Shown here one piece after another: positions 18,775-51,484 of a DNA stretch of 64,000 nt. The stretch's first letter is position 1. The number at the start of each line of letters is the position of its first letter. The notes beneath the pieces were generated by a model. It was not told the origin of the DNA, searched no databases, and saw only the letters and a list, made by a program, of their open reading frames with translations. Made by a program: the position numbers and the translations under genes. The DNA comes from Lachnospiraceae bacterium 3-1 (lineage in GTDB: Bacteria > Bacillota > Clostridia > Lachnospirales > Lachnospiraceae), in contig KE159571.1 in the NCBI GenBank assembly GCA_000403255.2, positions 654,111-718,110 on the forward strand, written 5' to 3'.

Positions 18775-19419
18775 ATGAAAATTATTATGTTAGGAGCGCC
18801 GGGAGCAGGAAAAGGAACACAGGCAAAGCAGATTGCGGATAAGTATTCTATTCCACATATTTCTACTGGAGATATTTTTCGGGCGAACTTGAAAGCAGGG
18901 ACAGAACTTGGAAAGAAGGCAAAGGAATACATGGACCAGGGACTTCTGGTACCAGATGAGCTTACATGTGATTTAGTTATGGACCGCATTGGTCAAGATG
19001 ACTGCAAAAATGGATTTGTGCTGGATGGTTTCCCAAGAACAATTCCCCAGGCACAGGCTTTGGATGCAGCGCTTGCAAAAATCAATGAAAAGATGGATTA
19101 TGCCATTGATGTGGATGTACCAGATGAAAATATTGTCAATCGGATGTCAGGAAGACGTGCATGCTTAAATTGTGGCGCAACTTATCACATTGTTTCGATT
19201 CCTACCAAGGTGGAAGGTATTTGCGACCGTTGTGGGAATAAAGTAGTTTTAAGAGATGATGATCAGCCAGAAACAGTAAAGAAACGTTTGGATGTATATC
19301 ATGAACAAACCCAGCCCTTAATTGATTATTATAAAGAACAGAATATTTTAAAAACTGTAGACGGAACCCAGCCAATGGAAAATGTATTTGGCGCCATTGT
19401 GGAAATTTTAGGAGCGTAA
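18775..19419 (+). CDS. adk: Adenylate kinase
   Basis: Cytoplasmic enzyme interconverting ATP + AMP and 2 ADP (214 aa). The P-loop GAPGAGKGT is at residues 7-15, DGFPRT at 84-89. The long lid carries four cysteines (Cys130, 133, 150, 153), the zinc-binding form of Gram-positives. AAGGAGG lies upstream, and map starts 2 nt after the stop. Confidence 0.97.
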
Positions 19420-19421
19420 AA

Positions 19422-20186
19422 ATGTCAGTATCAATTAAATCTGCCAGAGAAATCGAATTAATGCGGGCAGCAGGGAAAATTTTGGAGAAGGTTCATGATA
19501 ATCTGGGGAAATCCTTAAAGCCTGGGATGTCTACATACGATGTAGATCATCTAGGAGAGGAAATCATTAGAAGTTATGGGTGCATCCCTTCTTTTAAGAA
19601 TTATAATGGCTATCCGGCGTCTGTGTGTGTGTCGGTAAATAATGAGGTGGTGCATGGGATTCCCAGTAAAAAGCGCCTGATCCGTGAGGGAGATATTGTG
19701 AGCTTGGATATCGGAGTGATCTATAAAGGCTACCATTCTGATGCAGCAAGAACCCATGGTATTGGAGAAATTTCTCAGGAAGCAGCATTGTTGATTGAAA
19801 GGACCAGGCAGAGTTTTTTTGAAGGCATAAAATATGCGAAAGAAGGAAATCATCTACATCAGATTTCAAATGCAATCGCCGCTTATGCAGAAAGCTTTGG
19901 CTATGGAGTAGTGAGAGATTTGGTAGGGCATGGAATCGGCACGCATCTTCATGAAGATCCTCAGATACCGAATTTCAAACAAAAGAGCAGAGGCGTCAGG
20001 CTGAAGGCAGGCATGACATTGGCAATTGAACCTATGATTAACGCAGGGCGTTATGATGTGGCATGGCAGGAGGACAACTGGACAGTTGTTACTCAGGATG
20101 GTTCCTTATCTGCCCATTACGAAAATACGATTTTAGTGACAAGCGGGGAGCCTGAAATCTTATCCCTTACAAATGTGGAGGCATAG
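19422..20186 (+). CDS. map: Methionine aminopeptidase type I
   Basis: Removes N-terminal methionine from new proteins (254 aa). The metal ligands appear in the expected blocks: SLDIGVIYKGYHSDAART (two Asp), GHGIGTHLHEDP (His), AIEPM (Glu) and ENTILVT (Glu). It sits in the adk-map-infA arrangement typical of Firmicutes, closely coupled to adk. Confidence 0.96.
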   Translation: MSVSIKSAREIELMRAAGKILEKVHDNLGKSLKPGMSTYDVDHLGEEIIRSYGCIPSFKNYNGYPASVCVSVNNEVVHGIPSKKRLIREGDIVSLDIGVIYKGYHSDAARTHGIGEISQEAALLIERTRQSFFEGIKYAKEGNHLHQISNAIAAYAESFGYGVVRDLVGHGIGTHLHEDPQIPNFKQKSRGVRLKAGMTLAIEPMINAGRYDVAWQEDNWTVVTQDGSLSAHYENTILVTSGEPEILSLTNVEA

Positions 20187-20459
20187 ATGAATATAAAGTT
20201 AGCAGTTTCCAGATCTGGTCACGACAAAGACAACATGTATGTAATTGTAAAAGAAGAAGCCAATTGGGTTTATCTGGCGGATGGGAAATTAAAGCCTTTG
20301 GAAAAACCAAAAAAGAAGAACAAAAAGCATATTCAGATGATTAAAAAGCTTCCGAAAGAAATTACAGAAGTCTTTATGCAGGAGAATTTTCGGAATGAAG
20401 AGATAAAAAGAGCCATTAAGCTTTATCAGAAAAGTATCAGGAATACCCAGCAGGTATGA
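20187..20459 (+). CDS. KOW domain RNA-binding protein (L14e-like)
   Basis: A 90-aa basic protein starting directly after the map stop, with GGAGG just upstream in map. The N-terminal pattern ([45 protein letters not shown]) matches the small KOW/L14e-like RNA-binding proteins that occupy this slot between map and infA in Clostridia and Bacilli. The role is unknown; an auxiliary ribosome or translation factor is likely by context. Confidence 0.8.
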
Positions 20460-20478
20460 AAAATCAGGAGGAAACAAT

Positions 20479-20697
20479 ATGTCAAAAGCAGACGTAATCG
20501 AAGTAGAAGGAAAAGTAGTTGAGAAATTACCTAACGCTATGTTTCAGGTGGAATTGGAAAATGGACATCAAATTCTGGCACACATCAGCGGAAAGTTGAG
20601 AATGAATTTTATTCGTATTCTGCCAGGAGACAAGGTTACCATTGAAATGTCCCCATATGACCTGACAAAAGGAAGAATTATATGGAGAGATAAATAA
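20479..20697 (+). CDS. infA: Translation initiation factor IF-1
   Basis: IF-1 (72 aa) is an S1/OB-fold protein that blocks the A site during initiation. [22 protein letters not shown] and [18 protein letters not shown] are diagnostic. TCAGGAGG lies upstream. In related genomes rpmJ follows at once; here a 4-kb antisense cassette intervenes. Confidence 0.97.
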
Positions 20698-20759
20698 GAA
20701 GAGCGCCTATTAGAAAGTATTTTTCGAAATGCTTTGGTAATTAAGTTATCTCATATAAG

Positions 20760-20818
20760 CCCCATCGCCTTATTATGCAGTAGTGGAGATTGCATAATAA
20801 GGCGATGGGGTTTTGTTT
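20760..20818 (+). terminator. Strong terminator after infA
   Basis: A perfect 19-bp stem (20760-20778 with 20792-20810, starting CCCCATCGCC) with a 13-nt loop is followed by TTTTGTTT. It is oriented to end transcription coming from the ribosomal operon and reaches into the last codon of the antisense specificity gene. It should decouple infA from the rpmJ-rplQ part. Confidence 0.85.
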
Positions 20819-22304
20819 AAAATAATTCCTTTGGAAAATCTATTTCGATGTGTTCATCATTAATGATCTTGTCCAAAATTGTTGTAAGCTTGGTTTTGAG
20901 GCTTTTTATTGCTTTATCAAGTTGTATAATTCCCCATTTTGAGTAATCTTTACTATCTATATCATATGGTGTAGTATTAGGAGCATGATATAAAGATACA
21001 ATGTTATCAATCACATCTTCATCAAATTTTGGAATTTTGATATATTCAAAATATTCTGGGGAGAAATGTCCACCCGAACCGCCTACAGCCATTAAATCAA
21101 TAAGATTCATTCTACGGTACCAATCAAATATACATCTAAAATAAATAGATTTTCTTAAATCATTGTCTTCTCTTCTGGCATATAATCCATGTGCATTTGT
21201 AGTGCATTTTTCAAATTCTTCAACAATGACTGTGGACCTTCCTTTTTGAAAACCAGCTTCCCCAAACAAAATATCTCCCTTTTTTAACATTGGTAATTGC
21301 TTTTTTGTTCCTATGTACTGTATCTTATTTATTGTCCCGTATTCAGAAAGGTTTGTGGGAAGAAGTAATTGATAGAAACCTTTTTTATAAGTATCAGAAT
21401 CTATTCTAGTTTTTAATAGTTTTATTTCCAAGCTGGGACCAGGTATTATGGAAAAACCATATTCACCTGGTGTCCAATATCCGGCTTTGAAGGATTCAAC
21501 CAATCGGATTTTTTCTTCATATTCTTTGCAATAAATAGCAGCGTCTAACCGTTTTTCTTTTAACATTTTAGAAATTGTAGGATATTCATAAACATATTCT
21601 GTATTTGTTTGATTAGAACGAAGCGTTATACTTATGATATCAAAGATTTTTTGTGCGTTGTCTGTGATAGCCTTTTCCATAGCCATGATCATTTGTACAT
21701 GCTCTGAAATCAACTTTATAATATCTCTATGGTTCTTTTGATTTGGAAATGGAATTTTACATTGCATCCATCTTTCTCCGGCATGTTTAATTGTTGCACC
21801 TTTAGGACAAAGAGAGTTTAACTGTTCCTTAAAAAAATTATGTTTTAAAAAAGCATAAACATAGTAGTTATCATACTCTTCCTTAATATTTAATTTTACT
21901 ATTCCACTACAAAAATTTTTATCTTCGCATTCATTAGAACAAACAATTGCAGCTTCACCTATATTGGAGTCTTTTGATAATAAAATATCTCCTTTTGTCA
22001 GTCTTATGTTGGCATATTTTTTAGGATTGATTGGAATAATGCAATCTCCTTTCGGATAGATCAAATAGCTAAAATCTTGTAAGGACTTTGTTCTCAATAA
22101 ATATTTATTTGATTTTTTTACGTACCATTGACTTCCTGGTTCATTCCCTTTTTGATATCTGTGTTCTTCATCCAATAATTCTTTTACAGTTTTTACATTC
22201 TGATTTTTAATCTGTATTTTCTTGTACATTGTTGGCGACAGGGAACAGCCATGATCAAGAATTTCTTTAAATGATAACGTATCTGGAATTTTGTTAAAAT
22301 CCAT
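20817..22304 (-). CDS. Restriction-modification specificity subunit (HsdS/BcgI-B-like)
   Basis: A 495-aa protein with two target-recognition halves, the layout of Type I HsdS and Type IIB S subunits. Each half has the typical hydrophobic pattern (RLTKGDILLSKDSNIGEAAIV in the first, MLKKGDILFGEAGFQKGRSTVI in the second), with helical spacers around residues 205-230 and 460-480. It would choose the DNA sequence for the fused nuclease-methylase encoded just upstream: start 3 nt after that gene's stop, ribosome site AGGAGGATTAG within it. AT-rich unlike the ribosomal genes either side, so acquired (inference). Confidence 0.8.
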   Translation of the reverse strand: MDFNKIPDTLSFKEILDHGCSLSPTMYKKIQIKNQNVKTVKELLDEEHRYQKGNEPGSQWYVKKSNKYLLRTKSLQDFSYLIYPKGDCIIPINPKKYANIRLTKGDILLSKDSNIGEAAIVCSNECEDKNFCSGIVKLNIKEEYDNYYVYAFLKHNFFKEQLNSLCPKGATIKHAGERWMQCKIPFPNQKNHRDIIKLISEHVQMIMAMEKAITDNAQKIFDIISITLRSNQTNTEYVYEYPTISKMLKEKRLDAAIYCKEYEEKIRLVESFKAGYWTPGEYGFSIIPGPSLEIKLLKTRIDSDTYKKGFYQLLLPTNLSEYGTINKIQYIGTKKQLPMLKKGDILFGEAGFQKGRSTVIVEEFEKCTTNAHGLYARREDNDLRKSIYFRCIFDWYRRMNLIDLMAVGGSGGHFSPEYFEYIKIPKFDEDVIDNIVSLYHAPNTTPYDIDSKDYSKWGIIQLDKAIKSLKTKLTTILDKIINDEHIEIDFPKELF

Positions 22305-22307
22305 ACA

Positions 22308-24455
22308 CTAATCCTCCTTTAAAAACAGACGATTAATTTCTTCTTCTTGTCCCAAACACCAATCTCTAAAATCACTGATAATTTGAGAAAATTCTTCGTC
22401 TAAAACCATTTTTCCCTCTTTATCTTTTTCAATTTCGAATGTTGAATCATCTATTTTATACACTGGGTTAAAAACAACGTTTCTTTTTGATGTTCGTTTT
22501 TCATATCCAACAGCTTTAATATCTCTTGCAAAAACTGAATAATTACTATCTATCAATTTTTGCAGGCGATCTTCACATGGTTTATATGCAATAATTATGC
22601 TTGTATTTACGCCTGTTTCTGCAAATACATTTGGTGGTAAATCAAATACTGCCACTATACGCATTTTTTTCATTAACCATTCACGGACACATGCATATTT
22701 GTTGATTGATGATATAGAATTTGATACTACAATACCCATTCTTCCGCCAATTTTAAGCATTCGATATGCATTTTCTAAAAAGATCACTCCTTTGTCTATG
22801 GAATCTCCGCCTATGATATCCCATAATTCATATGTTTCAATAACTTTCTGCTCATATTTGTTTGCAGGTCTAAATGCCCGATCCTCTCCAAATGGTGGAT
22901 TTGTTAATATTACATCAAATCCCATTAATTTGGTGTTATCAGACCAATGATTCCATTGTCCATTTTTTTGCTTATCAACTTCTAATTCAACTAATTCTGG
23001 AGGATTTCCTACGGCAATTTTCCACAATATAGACCCTAAGTCGGGTTTGTAATACAATTTTGCTTCTCCATCACCATTTAATAACATATTTAAGGTTGCC
23101 AATTTTATCATATTGGGATCAATATCGACACCATAAATATTTGCATCGCTTAGCTTCCACTCATCAGGTTTTTCCAAAGCATTAACGTATGACAATGATA
23201 AAAAATCTCCAATTCCGCAACATGGATCTAGCACAGTGTCATTTTTACGTGGATTAACTATTCTGACTAAAAAATCTATAATGGGCAATGGGGTTAAAAA
23301 CTGAGCTGATTCATCTCTCTTGAATGCATTTGCAAAATTATAAAATATCATTTGATATATGTCACTTTTGGAAGATCTAACAAATGAAAAGTCTTGAAAA
23401 GCTATACAGATTGAAACTGCGACTTTAACCTGATTTATCTCTTTCCAATCAATTAATTGTTCGCTTAGTATTTTAGAATACTCATTTTCGGCATTAAGCC
23501 AGATTTCTTTTAATCGTTTGATAAAATTTTGAATTCCTTCTTCTCTAAGTGAATGAAACTTTTCTTCATTCTCTGTAATATAAAACTTTAGTTTATCCAT
23601 GGGATGTCTTTTGTTATGCTTTTCATCATATATTTTCAAAGCAAATGTTTGGATAAGTATTTCATAGCCTCTTTGGGAAACTAGGCCCACTTTATCTAAA
23701 CACCGTAGGACACTTGAGAGCGCATCTTGTAGTGATGTGGTTAATCTTGATGTAATAGTATCAAGATCCAGAATTGTGCGACAGCTTCTATCTAAAGTTT
23801 TTACCTTATTTTTTCTTGTAATCAATTCGTTATAATCTGGCAAATATATGTATGGGTCGAAAAGCTGTAAGGATAAGTCGCCTAGTTTGCTGTTATCACC
23901 TTTTACATTTTTATTTTCATCATATCTTAAATAGAGGCCGTTTCTTCGATGGAATAAATACATTCTTTCTGTATCATAATATATGCCAAGTACATAATCC
24001 ATAGATGGTTCTTTTTGTTTCATAGCAGCTTTTATTTGCCCGTTATATACTTTCTCGATTTCTTTATCACCCTTTTTAAACTCAATGACAGACAATATAT
24101 GTTCATTGAGCCAGTCTAAGTCAGAGGTCTTTTTATGTGTCCAATAATTATTGTATCTATCCAACCATTGTGGGGAGTCAAATATTACGGCATCAATCTT
24201 TAATGGCGCAGATGTTTTATTTCCTTTGGGAAAACGCACTTCAACCCCAATGTAATCCTTGTTATACATTCCACTATTTATAAGTGCATAGATAAACTGC
24301 CATTTATAGTATTCTTCTATTTTTTCACCAGAGGTATTTTTGATTGTTATGTCAGAAATATATTTTCCATCTACAGGAACAATAGATGTAGTTAGTCTTT
24401 GATTTTTTCCCAAACCACTATCAAATTCTTCTTTTTTTACAGTAAATTTAGGCAT
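22308..24455 (-). CDS. Fused nuclease plus N6-adenine DNA methyltransferase
   Basis: A 715-aa restriction-modification protein. N-terminus: an HsdR_N-like PD-(D/E)XK nuclease block, with Asp88 in LKIDAVIFD and Glu125-x-Lys127 in VIEFKKG. Residues about 215-390 are a helical HsdM-like region. The methyltransferase follows, with motif I DPCCGIGDF at 410-418 and catalytic NPPF at 519-522. Nuclease and methylase in one chain with a separate S subunit is the layout of BcgI-type (Type IIB) enzymes; no HsdR translocase is present here. The ribosome site AAAGGAGG precedes it, and its promoter carries a palindrome at the start site. Confidence 0.8.
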   Translation of the reverse strand: MPKFTVKKEEFDSGLGKNQRLTTSIVPVDGKYISDITIKNTSGEKIEEYYKWQFIYALINSGMYNKDYIGVEVRFPKGNKTSAPLKIDAVIFDSPQWLDRYNNYWTHKKTSDLDWLNEHILSVIEFKKGDKEIEKVYNGQIKAAMKQKEPSMDYVLGIYYDTERMYLFHRRNGLYLRYDENKNVKGDNSKLGDLSLQLFDPYIYLPDYNELITRKNKVKTLDRSCRTILDLDTITSRLTTSLQDALSSVLRCLDKVGLVSQRGYEILIQTFALKIYDEKHNKRHPMDKLKFYITENEEKFHSLREEGIQNFIKRLKEIWLNAENEYSKILSEQLIDWKEINQVKVAVSICIAFQDFSFVRSSKSDIYQMIFYNFANAFKRDESAQFLTPLPIIDFLVRIVNPRKNDTVLDPCCGIGDFLSLSYVNALEKPDEWKLSDANIYGVDIDPNMIKLATLNMLLNGDGEAKLYYKPDLGSILWKIAVGNPPELVELEVDKQKNGQWNHWSDNTKLMGFDVILTNPPFGEDRAFRPANKYEQKVIETYELWDIIGGDSIDKGVIFLENAYRMLKIGGRMGIVVSNSISSINKYACVREWLMKKMRIVAVFDLPPNVFAETGVNTSIIIAYKPCEDRLQKLIDSNYSVFARDIKAVGYEKRTSKRNVVFNPVYKIDDSTFEIEKDKEGKMVLDEEFSQIISDFRDWCLGQEEEINRLFLKED

Positions 24456-24545
24456 TTTCGTATACCTCCTTTATTTTTAAATAATAATCCGTGTATTCTG
24501 AGTTTATGTTATTTTGGCATTCATTAGATTTTAAAGATATTTAAA

Positions 24546-24557
24546 GAACGTACGTTC
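24546..24557. promoter_or_regulatory. LexA-like palindrome at the R-M promoter
   Basis: GAACGTACGTTC is a perfect 12-bp palindrome fitting the Gram-positive LexA core GAAC-RNRY-GTTC. It lies 6 nt downstream of the -10 box of the minus-strand R-M promoter, where a bound repressor would block initiation. LexA binding is inferred from the match only. Confidence 0.5.
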
Positions 24558-24563
24558 CATTTC

Positions 24564-24591
24564 ATTATAACATTAATTTTTGCTATTGCAA
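24564..24591 (-). promoter_or_regulatory. Promoter of the R-M cassette
   Basis: Reading on the minus strand, TTGCAA (24591-24586) and TATAAT (24569-24564) are separated by 16 bp, about 110 nt before the methylase start codon. Confidence 0.6.
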
Positions 24592-24632
24592 GTATTTTCT
24601 ATATTTATATACAAAAATGTTTTCCGAACCTA

Positions 24633-24661
24633 TTGATTTTTTTTTTTTAGAATGTTATAAT
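24633..24661 (+). promoter_or_regulatory. Promoter for rpmJ and the alpha operon part
   Basis: TTGATT and TATAAT with a 17-bp T-rich spacer, about 100 nt upstream of rpmJ and just past the R-M promoter region. With the terminator at 20760 it would give the rpmJ-rplQ genes their own transcript. The leader after it has small stems (GCATA/TATGC). Confidence 0.65.
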
Positions 24662-24760
24662 GCCAAGTGAACGCTTTTGGAGCGAGTTGTTTTTGCATAC
24701 AAAAATATGCAGAGACAGATACAAGAATATTTGTACAAACAGTAGAAAGGAGGAACTGCT

Positions 24761-24874
24761 GTGAAGGTAAGATCATCCGTAAAACCTATTTGCGAAAAAT
24801 GCAAAATTATTAAGAGAAAAGGAAGCATCCGGGTTATCTGTGAGAATCCAAAACATAAACAGAGACAGGGATGA
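24761..24874 (+). CDS. rpmJ: 50S ribosomal protein L36, zinc type
   Basis: bL36 (37 aa): [20 protein letters not shown], with the zinc ribbon Cys11, Cys14, Cys27, His32. It begins with GTG after AAAGGAGG. It normally follows infA; here it is separated from it by the antisense R-M cassette. Confidence 0.95.
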
Positions 24875-25249
24875 GATACAACACTTAACAAATTTTTATG
24901 TGCGGCTGTAGTGAAACACCAGGAACTGTTGTTAAACAGCAGGGAATCGTTTCATTATTCATAATAACCAGCGTGTGCGGCTGTTTTCGGGTTTTTTGAT
25001 ACCGAGGGAATCCGGGAAAAATGTACAGAACAAGATATTTGACAGAGAACAGAGATATGCACTCATTTCAGGGCGAGCAACCGCAGCTGCATATGTTTGT
25101 TTTTCGTGTTTAAGGCAGATTTTGTTGCAGATATGCCTGAGCTTGCCGTTTGCAGATGGAAAATACTGGAATTGTCAGAGGCAGGCGGCAGAATGGAAAA
25201 GATCCGATATGGAGAAAAGATTAGAAGATTATGGAGGTGTACGACACAC
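24875..25249 (+). other. Unusually long gap between rpmJ and rpsM
   Basis: 375 nt without a convincing gene, where most relatives have a short spacer. It contains two copies of TGTGCGGCTGT (about 24899 and 24973), a short stem (ACTGTTGTTAAACAGCAG region) and a 31-codon frame from 25021 with no good ribosome site. Possible 5' leader regulating rpsM-rpsD, as S4 does in other bacteria (inference). GGAGGTG for rpsM is at the 3' end. Confidence 0.35.
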
Positions 25250-25618
25250 ATGGCTCGTATCGCAGGTGTAGATTTACCAAGAGAAAAACGTGTTGAAATA
25301 GGATTAACTTATATTTATGGCATCGGAAGAGCAAGCTCTAACCGTATCCTGGCAGAAGCTAAAGTAAGTCCTGATACTCGTGTCAGAGATTTGACAGACG
25401 AAGAAGTGAAAAGAATCAGTGAAGTGATCGACCAGACTCAAATGGTAGAAGGTGATTTGAGAAGAGAAATCGCTTTAAATATTAAGAGATTACAGGAAAT
25501 TGGATGTTATCGTGGGATTCGTCATAGGAAAGGGCTTCCAGTTCGTGGTCAGAATACAAAGACGAATGCAAGAACCAGAAAAGGTCCTAAGAGAACAGTT
25601 GCGAATAAGAAAAAATAG
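25250..25618 (+). CDS. rpsM: 30S ribosomal protein S13
   Basis: uS13 (122 aa) is in the 30S head and contacts the 50S and P-site t[29 protein letters not shown] and the C-terminal [19 protein letters not shown] are diagnostic. The ATG at 25250 follows GGAGGTG; the frame is open further upstream but lacks homology. Confidence 0.97.
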
Positions 25619-25728
25619 ATCATTTTGTGATGGCAAGCGGATTTGCGCAGCCTGAGCTTAGTGAACAGAATTACAATTAATAGCAGAGCAATCAATATTA
25701 TTTTGGAAGAAAGTAGGTTAGTTTAGAT

Positions 25729-26124
25729 ATGGCGAAAAACACTGCAAAAAAAGTGACAAAAAAGCGCGTAAAGAAAAACGTTGAACGTGGACAGGCGCAC
25801 ATTCAGTCATCTTTCAACAATACAATCGTAACAATTACAGATGCTGAAGGAAATGCTTTATCATGGGCAAGTGCAGGCGGTCTTGGCTTTAGAGGTTCAA
25901 GGAAATCTACTCCGTATGCTGCACAGATGGCGGCAGAGACAGCTACAAAGGCAGCTCTTATTCATGGTTTAAAAACAGTAGACGTTATGGTAAAAGGACC
26001 TGGTTCAGGAAGAGAAGCAGCAATCCGTGCACTTCAGGCATGTGGTCTTGAGGTAACAAGCATCAAGGACGTTACTCCGGTACCTCACAATGGATGCCGC
26101 CCGCCAAAACGTAGAAGAGTCTGA
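25729..26124 (+). CDS. rpsK: 30S ribosomal protein S11
   Basis: uS11 (131 aa) forms the platform near the E site. [38 protein letters not shown] and the C-terminal [18 protein letters not shown] identify it. The 110-nt gap before it lacks a strong ribosome site (GAAAGTAGG only) and holds a short GCCTGAGCTTAGTGAAC stretch resembling part of the rpsH elements. Confidence 0.97.
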
Positions 26125-26144
26125 TTTAGGAGGTATAAGTTAAG

Positions 26145-26738
26145 ATGGCAGTAAATAGAGTTCCCGTTTTAAAGAGATGTAGATCTCTTGGGTTAGACCC
26201 AATTTTTTTAGGAATAGATAAGAAGTCTAACAGACAGTTAAAGAGAGCAAACAGAAAAGTATCTGAATATGGTCTTCAGTTAAGAGAAAAACAGAAAGCA
26301 AAATTTATTTATGGCGTATTAGAAAAACCATTCCATAATTATTATCTGAAAGCAGATAGAATGAAAGGAATGACAGGTGAGAACCTGATGATCATTCTGG
26401 AGAGCAGATTGGATAACGTAGTATTCCGTTTAGGACTGGCAAGAACCAGAAAAGAAGCAAGACAGATTGTTGGCCATAAGCATGTTTTGGTAAATGGCAA
26501 GCAGGTAAAGGTTCCGTCTTATCTGGTAAAAGCTGGCGATACAGTTGAAATCAAAGAAAAATGCAAAGGATCCCAGAGATACAAAGATATCCTTGAAGTA
26601 ACTGCCGGGAGATTAGTTCCGGAATGGTTAGAGGCTGACCAGGAAAACCTGAAGGGTACTGTAAAGGAATTACCGAACAGAGAGGCAATTGACGTTCCAG
26701 TTAACGAAATGCTTATCGTCGAGTTGTATTCTAAATAA
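26145..26738 (+). CDS. rpsD: 30S ribosomal protein S4
   Basis: uS4 (197 aa) is a primary 16S binder at the mRNA entry, and a translational repressor in several bacteria. The S4 domain [30 protein letters not shown] is clear. The N-terminus ([19 protein letters not shown]) lacks the four-Cys zinc motif, so this is the C- form. TTAGGAGG lies upstream. Confidence 0.96.
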
Positions 26739-26779
26739 TCATTAACAAGCAACGATACCCGAAAAGGAGGGACTTTGTA

Positions 26780-27739
26780 GTGTTCGATTTTGAAAAACCA
26801 AAAATTGAAATTTCTCAGATTTCAGAAGACAAAAAATACGGCCGATTTGTTGTAGAACCACTGGAGAGAGGTTATGGTACTACACTTGGCAATTCTTTAA
26901 GAAGAATCATGCTTTCTTCCTTGCCAGGCGCAGCAGTCAGCCAGGTAAAAATCGAAAGTGTTTTGCATGAGTTCAGTTCCATTCCTGGCGTAAAGGAAGA
27001 TGTAACTGAGATTATTATGAACATCAAGAATCTGGCATTAAAAAACACCAGCCCAACAAACGAGTCTAAAGTTGCTTACATTGAATTTGAAGGTGAAGGC
27101 GTAGTTACAGCAGCAGATATTCAGGTAGATCCTGATATCCAGGTGCTGAATCCTGAATTGGTAATTGCCCATCTGAACGGTGGAGCAGATTCCAGATTAT
27201 ATATGGAATTGACAATTACAAAAGGCAGGGGCTACGTGAGCGCTGACAAGAACAAGAGTGAAGATGTACCAATTGGCGTCATTGCAGTTGATTCTATTTA
27301 TACGCCAGTAGAGCGTGTAAATCTTACGATTGAGAATACACGTGTGGGACAGATTACAGACTATGATAAGCTTACACTGGATGTATTTACGAATGGTACA
27401 CTGGAACCCGATGAGGCAGTAAGTTTAGCAGCAAAGGTTTTAAGCGAGCATTTGAATTTATTTATTGACTTGTCTGAGAATGCAAGAACTGCAGAAGTCA
27501 TGATTGAAAAAGAAGATAATGCAAAAGAAAAAGTTCTTGAAATGAATATTGATGAACTGGAATTGTCCGTTCGTTCTTATAACTGCCTGAAACGGGCAGG
27601 TATCAACACGGTAGAAGAGTTGACCAATAGAACACCGGAAGATATGATGAAGGTTCGTAATCTTGGACGTAAGTCTTTAGAAGAAGTATTAGCAAAACTA
27701 AAAGAACTAGGATTACAATTAAACCCCGGAGAAGAATGA
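26780..27739 (+). CDS. rpoA: DNA-directed RNA polymerase alpha subunit
   Basis: Alpha (319 aa) nucleates RNA polymerase assembly and its C-terminal domain contacts UP elements and activators. Dimerisation domain: [21 protein letters not shown]-type sequence. Alpha-[24 protein letters not shown] and [16 protein letters not shown]. It starts with GTG after AAAGGAGGG. A hairpin (GAAGAAT with ATTCTTC flanked by CCCC/GGGG) follows the stop. Confidence 0.97.
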
Positions 27740-27756
27740 AATTCTTCGGAGGGGTA
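27723..27756 (+). other. Hairpin between rpoA and rplQ
   Basis: CCCC-GAAGAAT pairs with ATTCTTC-GGGG around a GAA loop, immediately at the rpoA stop. There is no T-run. It is probably an mRNA processing or stability element lowering or separating rplQ expression. Confidence 0.4.
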
Positions 27757-27877
27757 ATCCCAGTTTTACACATACTTGGCGAGGATTGTAAGACCAAAGG
27801 GCAAAGCCTTGTCAATCACATGTTCGGTAAATAAGACCAAAAGGCATTGCCGGATATTCAAAATGGAGGATTTAAAA

Positions 27878-28414
27878 ATGGCAAAATATAGAAAATTAGG
27901 CAGAACCTCTGATCAGAGAAAAGCCTTAATTAGAAATCAGGTAACTGCATTGTTATACAATGGCAAAATTGTAACGACAGAAGCTAAAGCTAAAGAAGTC
28001 CGTAAAGTAGCAGAAGGGTTAATTGCTATGGCTGTAAGAGAAAAAGATAATTTTGAGGAAGTTACCGTAACAGCTAAAGTGCCACGTAAAGACAAAGACG
28101 GCAAAAGAGTAAAAGAAGTGGTAGACGGCAAGAAAGTGACCGTATACGACGAAGTAGAGAAGAAAATCAAGAAAGACCTTCCTTCCCGTTTACATGCAAG
28201 ACGTCAGATGAACAAAGTATTATACTCTGTGAAATCTGTTCCGGCTGAAAATGCAGGAAAGAAGAAGAACACCAAGAAAGTTGACGTTGCAACCAAGTTA
28301 TTTGACGAAATTGCTCCAAAGTATGTAGACCGTAATGGTGGATACACCAGAATCGTAAAAATTGGTCAGCGTAAAGGTGACGGTGCTTTAGAGGTTCTTC
28401 TGGAATTAGTATAG
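27878..28414 (+). CDS. rplQ: 50S ribosomal protein L17 with internal insertion
   Basis: bL17 (178 aa) lies near the tunnel exit. Both family ends are intact: MAKYRKLGRTSDQRKALIRNQ and APKYVDRNGGYTRIVKIGQRKGD. Ordinary L17 is about 115-130 aa; the extra length is a Lys/Val-rich stretch, roughly residues 52-90 (KVPRKDKDGKRVKEVVDGKK...), before LHARRQ. The ATG at 27878 after ATGGAGG is the start. Last gene of the operon, followed by a terminator. Confidence 0.95.
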   Translation: MAKYRKLGRTSDQRKALIRNQVTALLYNGKIVTTEAKAKEVRKVAEGLIAMAVREKDNFEEVTVTAKVPRKDKDGKRVKEVVDGKKVTVYDEVEKKIKKDLPSRLHARRQMNKVLYSVKSVPAENAGKKKNTKKVDVATKLFDEIAPKYVDRNGGYTRIVKIGQRKGDGALEVLLELV

Positions 28415-28437
28415 AATCGGAAAATATAATGATGAAA

Positions 28438-28488
28438 GGTCGTCGGAAAGAATATTTGAAATGTATTCTTTCCGGCGGCCTTCTTTTG
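28438..28488 (+). terminator. Terminator of the ribosomal operon
   Basis: A 17-bp stem (GG-CG-CGGAAAGAATA type, with two G-T pairs) around a 9-nt loop is followed by TTCTTTT, directly after rplQ. Confidence 0.85.
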
Positions 28489-28644
28489 ATATGTTGTGAA
28501 TAAATTCCTTTCAAACATTATTTTTTGTGGAAATGTGACGATGTTATTATTATAGCCAGTCAAATGTAAGAGAACAGGAGGCTTAGGCGTTAGGGATTTT
28601 CAGAGGAAAAGGATTTCCAAAATCAGTTTCAGGGAGGGAACAGT

Positions 28645-29508
28645 ATGAAAGTAACATCATATATGGCCAGTGGAGTAGCTTCCAGCAGCATACAGGGAAC
28701 GATATCCACGAGAAATATGCAAAAGAATACAAGAGCTTCCAAAAAGAGCAGTCAGAACAAAGGAAAAAAGAAAAACGTAAATTATAATCCAAGAGAAATA
28801 CGCTCTGCGCTGTCTCGGGTAAAAAAAGCACAGAGCGCCGGGCAGGTGTTGGCACAGGCCAAGGGAAAGCTGGCTAATTTGCTGAAAGCAAAAGGCACAG
28901 GGCAATTCAATGAAGCACAGCTTGCAGCGGCTATTATCCATGCTCGCAGGATGGTGCGTTGCGCCCAGATGAAGACACAGAATCTAAAACAGGAAGAGCA
29001 GCTTCAGAAAAGGCATGCCAAGGAAGTGAAAGCAGAAGAACAGCAGCAAAAAAATGAAATAAAGCTCAGGGTAAAACAAAAAGAGCAGAATCTCAAACAA
29101 AAAGCAAGGATGGACAAAAGCCAGAGAATCCAGAAGCAGAAACGCCAGCAGCAGGAATTGATGCAGAAACGCCGGATTCACCGCAACATGGAGCATGAGA
29201 AGATGGAGGAAGCAGATTTGGAGTATAAGAAAAATATGGGCAATGCTTCCAATTATTCTGAGAATGAAGCGTTTGCATATGCCTATGTTCCGACTGAGGG
29301 TGTGGAGCTTAAGTTGAGCGAGGACGGCATAGAGCTGACAGAAGCACAGATAGAAGCGCAGATTGAGCAGCAGATAGAAATGATGGTGGCAGCAGAGATG
29401 ACAGTAAGCACTGGCGTTCCAGATATTTCTGCAGGTGCAGCTACTACAGTTGGCGGAGGAGCCGATATGTCAGGCGGGGATGTTCCGTCGGTGGATTTGG
29501 TGGTTTGA
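28645..29508 (+). CDS. Hypothetical coiled-coil protein
   Basis: A 287-aa protein that I do not recognise. Residues about 1-45 are Ser/Thr/Lys rich; 48-105 are helical; 110-200 form a long Gln/Lys/Glu coiled coil (KQKEQNLKQKARMDKSQRIQ and similar); the last 60 residues are acidic then Gly/Ala/Val-rich and likely disordered. No signal peptide or membrane segment. AGGGAGGG lies upstream, and it is a single gene between the operon terminator and a terminator at 29609. Confidence 0.6.
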   Translation: MKVTSYMASGVASSSIQGTISTRNMQKNTRASKKSSQNKGKKKNVNYNPREIRSALSRVKKAQSAGQVLAQAKGKLANLLKAKGTGQFNEAQLAAAIIHARRMVRCAQMKTQNLKQEEQLQKRHAKEVKAEEQQQKNEIKLRVKQKEQNLKQKARMDKSQRIQKQKRQQQELMQKRRIHRNMEHEKMEEADLEYKKNMGNASNYSENEAFAYAYVPTEGVELKLSEDGIELTEAQIEAQIEQQIEMMVAAEMTVSTGVPDISAGAATTVGGGADMSGGDVPSVDLVV

Positions 29509-51455: not shown

Positions 51456-51484
51456 TTGACAAAAAGAACAAATGTTCGTATAAT
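51456..51484 (+). promoter_or_regulatory. Consensus promoter with embedded LexA-like site
   Basis: TTGACA and TATAAT separated by exactly 17 bp; the spacer contains GAACAAATGTTC (51466-51477), which fits the Gram-positive SOS box core GAAC-RNRY-GTTC. A repressor bound there would block RNA polymerase. It drives the 76-aa gene at 51581. Confidence 0.65.

Follow-up and report, generated by a model that had tools for sequence, protein, structure and literature searches.

Few bacterial gene orders are as conserved as that of the S10-spc-alpha cluster of ribosomal protein genes. In Lachnospiraceae bacterium 3-1, a stretch of 64,000 nt from contig KE159571.1 (nt 654111–718110, forward strand; hereafter the window, in whose own numbering all coordinates are given) carries this cluster with a two-gene restriction-modification (R-M) cassette between infA and rpmJ, a junction referred to below as the seam. 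The gene for IF-1, infA (nt 20479–20697, + strand; PF01176, E 1.1e-29), is the final gene of the upstream block, and rpmJ, encoding L36 (nt 24761–24874, + strand, GTG start; PF00444), belongs to the alpha block; each is the single match in the genome. The cassette (nt 20817–24455) separates the two and lies antisense to the ribosomal cluster, as a preliminary description of this DNA had proposed, and Pfam, PADLOC and the coordinates bear this out. Its two minus-strand genes stand a few bases apart. RM (nt 22308–24455) specifies a 715 aa protein, a putative fusion of a PD-(D/E)XK nuclease with an N6-adenine methyltransferase (PF02384, E 1.5e-30; invariant motifs), and S (nt 20817–22304) a specificity-like subunit of 495 aa (PF01420, Methylase_S, E 2.7e-5; PADLOC Specificity_I, E 1.1e-15). 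Both are low in G+C (0.32 for RM and 0.30 for S, vs 0.41 for the window). Among the genes of the ribosomal cluster, map, infA, rpmJ, rpoA and rplQ were confirmed with Pfam; adk, rpsM (nt 25250–25618, + strand), rpsK and rpsD were named by eye.

Just 3' of infA is a hairpin resembling an intrinsic terminator (nt 20757–20813, + strand), recognized from an inverted repeat with 23-nt arms (nt 20757–20779 and 20791–20813) that are 96% complementary, with a perfect 20-pair core and a T-rich tail on the + side. It had been announced as a perfect 19-bp terminator, and the predicted structure is at least that good. Its folding z-score is –7.83, none of 200 shuffled sequences was equally stable, and its end lies 3–8 nt from the last base of S. 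The hairpin was also considered as a dispersed repeat, which was rejected: the genome holds no second copy besides itself and its self-complement. A search of nt 20600–25400 against Rfam gave no match at the gathering score, and the miRNA matches reflect the long hairpin. At the opposite end, the cassette has a likely promoter of its own (TTGCAA-16-TATAAT with TG preceding the –10 box; nt 24564–24591, – strand), and 6 nt beyond this –10 box is a perfect, LexA-box-like palindrome, GAACGTACGTTC (nt 24546–24557), that may have a regulatory role. The right edge of the insert falls at nt 24604–24625, where alignment with the cassette-free site of the related genome G016 resumes (compared genomes and loci carry G and L numbers, the window genome being G000). 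It is followed by the candidate rpmJ (alpha block) promoter, TTGATT-17-TATAAT with an extended –10 (nt 24633–24661, + strand), present as originally reported, and by the rpmJ leader (nt 24662–24760, + strand), in which a TTTTGGAG element and hairpins were found by leader alignment and folding.

A lone promoter-like match in the window is not above chance (32 were found in nt 19000–29000, with 34.0 expected), and the match ahead of rpmJ counts because it is conserved across relatives. The genus was sampled with 29 genomes, of which 25 yielded rpmJ; the four misses are genomes 63–85% complete. All 25 loci have a –35 beginning TTG, a 17-bp spacer, and a –10 of TATAAT, TATACT or TACAAT preceded by TG, at 84–106 nt from rpmJ, under a motif rule that demanded TTG plus A2 and T6 of the –10. 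A score test over 150 nt, made independently of the motif rule, was passed by 25/25 genus loci and by 51 of 70 loci from other genera of the family (170 genomes searched, 164 with rpmJ, 70 loci taken); dinucleotide shuffles passed in 3.2% (genus) and 4.1% (family) of cases. The same test applied elsewhere in the cluster was rarely passed, either in the genus (rpsM 0/25, rpsK 0/25, infA 0/21, map 0/21) or in the family (rpsM 1/69, rpsK 0/16, infA 3/64, map 1/48). The seven genus loci in which infA and rpmJ are only 143–297 bp apart also carry the rpmJ promoter. Since homology to the empty site of G016 covers the DNA from about nt 24604–24625 onwards and with it the promoter, the promoter lies outside the insert. 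A promoter delivered by the cassette is thus ruled out by its presence in all 25 genus loci, and it is not 'new', as had been supposed, when 51/70 family loci also have it by score.

Upstream of rpmJ, infA could be placed in 21 of the 25 genus loci; the contigs of G008, G012 and G026 break off before reaching it, and G020 has no infA within 16 kb. Hairpins with T-rich tails stand downstream of infA in 18 of these 21 loci, and the two blocks are therefore probably separate transcription units. Under a strict rule, applied to the genus (–17 kcal/mol or better, with a T-rich tail, no more than 230 nt from infA), such a hairpin was found in 15/21 loci vs 1/105 mononucleotide shuffles. Further infA hairpins of about 100 nt, at –42 to –57 kcal/mol, occur in G001, G006 and G016. 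The proposal that rpmJ to rplQ are uncoupled from upstream agrees with these predictions: in the window a strong hairpin and a promoter flank the cassette, and these genes look transcriptionally independent.

The distance between infA and rpmJ varies widely within the genus: 143–297 bp in 7 loci, 820–828 bp in 4, and 1535–12573 bp in 10. A gap of at least 820 bp is thus present in 14/21 loci, and within the genus a split at this point is not the rarity it was first taken to be. At the neighbouring junctions, separations of at least 700 bp were not seen (adk-map, map-orf90 and orf90-infA 0/21 each; rpmJ-rpsM and rpsM-rpsK 0/25 each), orf90 being a 90-aa open reading frame (ORF) described below. 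Cargo contents were examined with Pfam for selected ORFs and by eye for the others, and they are diverse. G014 has an ECF sigma factor and a zinc-ribbon protein (weak match), with the same ORF start recognized by eye in G005, G011, G013, G015, G027 and G028. Big_2 surface proteins occur in G009, G025 and G003, polysaccharide deacetylases with choline-binding repeats in G025, G001 and G003, MBOAT and AlgX-like proteins in G001 (similar ORFs by eye in G006 and G008), and flagellins in G018 and G027. A small tyrosine recombinase (PF00589, 193–194 aa) is encoded in the cargo of G003 and G006, and a similar ORF in two pieces was seen by eye in G001. The seam therefore resembles an integration hotspot in that unrelated cargoes occupy one site in related genomes. 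A shared recombinase or a duplicated attachment site, which would also be expected of a hotspot, was not found: the window insert has no recombinase ORF, and repeats were looked for at the edges of this insert.

Other genera of the family mostly keep the genes close together, with a gap of at most 420 bp in 62/70 loci and 695–1390 bp in 3; in the remaining 5, infA lay outside the stretch first fetched. Four of these five were followed further (G111 was left out). In G084 the gap measures about 1.6 kb and encodes an NCS2 permease. In the loci of G073, G128 and G170 (L190, L191 and L193, from three other genera) the 14.4, 9.7 and 15.1 kb preceding rpmJ, respectively, lack infA, the last two stretches reaching the contig end. 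Because no infA was found there, the alpha block may be fully detached in these three genomes. As a separate observation, the cargo of L028, L034 and L037 has a small XerD/DNA-invertase-like recombinase (in two pieces in L034) between a minus-strand gene of the deacetylase type and a plus-strand gene, an arrangement that may represent a phase-variable promoter switch within the ribosomal cluster.

In a genus tree of six genes, whose alignment had 28 rows (four covering 42% of the columns) and which was built by a quick method with SH-aLRT support, the window genome pairs with G016 at a support of 99. The seam of G016 is empty: a 289-bp gap contains no cassette but does contain the promoter and a strong hairpin of its own. 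This genome is 83% complete, and its seam lies on a single 27-kb contig. Its alignment to the window breaks at the infA stop codon (nt 20697) and resumes at nt 24604–24625, 8–29 bp before the –35 box. The G016 hairpin is absent from the window, and a different hairpin stands in its place. From the alignment edges and the exchanged hairpin it follows that the cassette replaced the spacer. Across the tree, filled, empty and differently filled seams are interspersed. Comparison of the junction in relatives, the check suggested at the outset, shows that the cassette was inserted and is not ancestral, as G016 is empty and only G000 among the 29 genomes has it there. It is a real and recent gain.

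Relatives of RM at E≤1e-30 occur in 2/29 genus genomes, G000 and G027, the latter 37% identical and on a contig other than that of its rpmJ. At E≤1e-60, the single match in the 170 family genomes is G000 itself, and a plasmid collection gave no relative at E≤1e-40. Among 45 homologous loci the nearest is L051, from a Lachnospiraceae metagenome-assembled genome of goat colon, with 90% protein identity and 84.3% DNA identity over 3619 nt. It is located elsewhere, downstream of rplM-rpsI (by eye) and of a Mob_Pre-type ORF. The shared DNA begins 12–14 nt before the RM start and ends 16 nt ahead of the L051 stop and, in the window, 34 nt ahead of the end of S. Given these limits, the likely mobile unit is the RM/S pair of ORFs, which seems to move without the promoter; a cassette moving with its own regulatory DNA is unsupported, as identity with L051 ends so near the RM start.

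Taken together, these data argue that transcription of the cluster has long been divided at the infA/rpmJ seam in the family and that in the genus this seam is a permissive landing place for cargo, a reading to which we give a probability of about 0.82. Read most simply, the tree places the promoter before the terminator and the terminator before the cargo. The hairpin after infA, as predicted from sequence, would split the two blocks into separate transcription units; different lineages received different genes between the blocks, as their cargoes attest; and in the window the R-M cassette took the place of the spacer, from the infA stop to about nt 24604–24625, just short of the –35 box. With the upstream transcript expected to end at the hairpin and the downstream one to begin in the right flank, both essential blocks should keep running. 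The operon was already divided beforehand, and the seam has received several guests, of which the R-M cassette is one.

Several observations weigh against this reading. G025 and G026 gave near-identical rows, so that the 25 genus loci are not independent, and the 70 family loci are not a random draw but consist of the 30 best-scoring and 40 picked by hand; 19/70 fall below the promoter score. No infA hairpin was found in G004, G007 and G023, the earliest branches of the genus tree, and for this reason uncoupling is not established genus-wide. A looser hairpin rule does not discriminate in the genus (18/21 real vs 25/42 shuffled); in the family it gave 28/65 real vs 25/130 shuffled. The strength of the terminators and the degree of read-through are inferred from predicted structures. 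In addition, the window insert has no integrase, and the only direct repeat at its edges, 9 nt long at nt 20715 and 24590, was equalled in length in 24/500 shuffles and lies off the homology edges.

The same promoter-first history is kept by an explanation that differs solely on whether anything targets the seam. Here the seam would be a neutral gap between operons that simply tolerates insertions, nothing would draw cargo to it, and the R-M genes would be functionally unrelated to their place. Unrelated cargo contents fit this, as do the scarcity of recombinases at filled sites, the unconvincing edge repeat, and the three other genera without infA within 9.7–15 kb upstream of rpmJ (two reaching the contig end). 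Cargo is nevertheless concentrated at one junction in one genus (14/21 loci at 820 bp or more, vs 62/70 family loci at 420 bp or less), which may itself merely mark where tolerance exists, and we hold this explanation tentatively, at slightly less than even odds. That cargo is inserted at the seam by a small XerD/DNA-invertase-type tyrosine recombinase is improbable: the PF00589 ORFs of G003 and G006 and the two-piece ORF of G001 speak for it, but no such gene was seen in the window cassette or in most other filled sites, and the ORF could equally be the invertase of a local cargo. The view first envisaged, in which an unbroken S10-spc-alpha operon was split by the R-M cassette, which also brought a new promoter and terminator and was anchored by its essential neighbours, is highly improbable; the empty site of G016, with its promoter and hairpin, already largely refutes it. 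The cassette is indeed absent from this sister, and the window hairpin, having no counterpart in the aligned G016 spacer, may have arrived with it, but the rpmJ promoter is common to the whole genus sample, G016, G002, G019 and G024 combine infA hairpins and short gaps with no cassette, and the interspersion of filled and empty sites on the tree speaks against both a causal role and protection of the cassette from loss.

With the seam read as an old boundary that accepts cargo, the conserved S10-spc-alpha order would be breakable at one point, where a conserved promoter seems to allow it. The locus would then record an ordered history of an essential operon coming apart without evident harm: promoter, terminator, cargo and, in some other genera, possibly loss of the link to infA. 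In E. coli the alpha block likewise has its own promoter, but there the break between spc and alpha comes after rpmJ. Here the break precedes rpmJ, and promoter-like sites ahead of rpsM were found in none of the 25 genus loci and in 1/69 family loci. Rearrangements of this essential cluster are already known elsewhere, and what is added here is a recurrent guest site. PMC8046335 describes how, in Gammaproteobacteria and Bacilli, foreign or relocated genes came to lie between the core operons of this cluster, sometimes followed by full disconnection, at the seams rpoBC-str, str-S10 and rplL-rsmC. The window shares with those cases the insertion of foreign genes within the cluster; it differs from them, as there described, in that the seam is infA/rpmJ in a genus of Lachnospiraceae, is used repeatedly and has a conserved promoter. 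A literature search by title found nothing on a cargo site at infA/rpmJ.

The enzyme itself was examined in an alignment of the window RM with sequences from 35 loci; 38 were tried, of which three gave interrupted rows and were dropped, and 7 partial loci of the 45 were omitted. Residues D88, E125 and K127 and the NPPF motif (519–522) are invariant in 36/36 sequences. We take D88...E125-x-K127 to be the PD-(D/E)XK nuclease motif, and the pattern fits a nuclease of this type fused to an N6-adenine methyltransferase. The methyltransferase domain with NPPF is confirmed by the PF02384 match, and the putative nuclease part matches HSDR_N_2 weakly (E 0.076). By sequence, the best solved relatives of RM are Type I M subunits and the RM chain of the Type IIB enzyme BsaXI (E 4e-15); no solved chain matched S at E≤0.01. 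A separate S subunit adjoins RM, and an S match was obtained on 37 of the 45 loci carrying an RM relative. No HsdR gene stands beside RM and S, as the insert has just two long ORFs and its flanks are infA and rpmJ; the rest of the genome was not searched for HsdR. A Type I (HsdRMS) system, with an HsdR translocase gene beside M and S, was therefore rejected at this locus. The MADS defence system was likewise rejected, as scores were below the curated cut-offs of the MAD2 and MAD5 models (151 vs 720 bits and 54.5 vs 400 bits). By architecture the cassette would be a Type IIB-like RM plus S of the BcgI/BsaXI type, with predicted cleavage, and probably a stand-alone enzyme, its motifs being intact. 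BsaXI-type enzymes consist of an RM fusion and a separate S gene (PDB 8w0p; PMC11997821, PMC9159934). The window cassette has the same two-gene plan, but its RM is 715 aa vs 916 aa for the BsaXI chain, and the match is confined to the methyltransferase part.

Transcription of the cassette would start from its own antisense promoter, perhaps under LexA-type repression. The palindrome over this promoter suggests SOS control, and the evidence is mixed. The host lexA carries CGAACAAATTTTCG upstream, and GAACTAACGTTC lies 27 nt ahead of a putative radical SAM gene of DNA repair (TIGR03916). On the other side, the LexA-like pattern occurs at 35 sites genome-wide vs 58 for a reversed control pattern, 9 of the 15 sites inspected among these 35 fall within an ORF, and the region upstream of the L051 cassette differs. 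A broader proposal, in which the alpha block is a promoter-headed, self-contained module across the family, its front edge is a true dock in the genus where accessory genes of either orientation come to stand between a terminator and a ribosomal promoter, and the dock in the window contains a damage-inducible restriction system, is, as a whole, unlikely. Elsewhere in the window, a second LexA-like palindrome, GAACAAATGTTC (nt 51466–51477), precedes by about 60 bp a 91-aa ORF that belongs to no known family and is followed by a helix-turn-helix gene.

Between map and infA, the lysine-rich ORF of 90 aa (orf90, nt 20187–20459) is present in 21/21 genus loci with infA, the window included; no Pfam or NCBIfam model matched it at E≤0.001.

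The rpmJ leader is itself conserved. The element TTTTGGAG is invariant in 24/24 aligned genus leaders, and the folding of the window leader beats 200/200 shuffles (z –3.37). Covariation is weak; RNAalifold keeps just a 4-pair hairpin with one compensatory pair, so that the longer leader folds remain suggestions. In 13/25 minimum-energy folds, counted by eye, GCUGUGAAGGU at the start codon of rpmJ is paired with GCUUUUGGAGC or a variant of it, a predicted pairing that could act as a translational switch. The spacer between rpmJ and rpsM is also kept, at 266–514 nt in 25/25 genus loci and 375 nt in the window (nt 24875–25249). Rfam gave nothing at the gathering score for nt 24860–25270, and the S4-Clostridia leader (RF03140) was not matched in the window or in 13 genus loci. 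In nine loci of other genera, chosen for their leaders and so not at random, RF03140 was present in this spacer in seven (L115, L118, L123, L133, L150, L161 and L162), and the S4 leader may have been lost or strongly altered in the genus.

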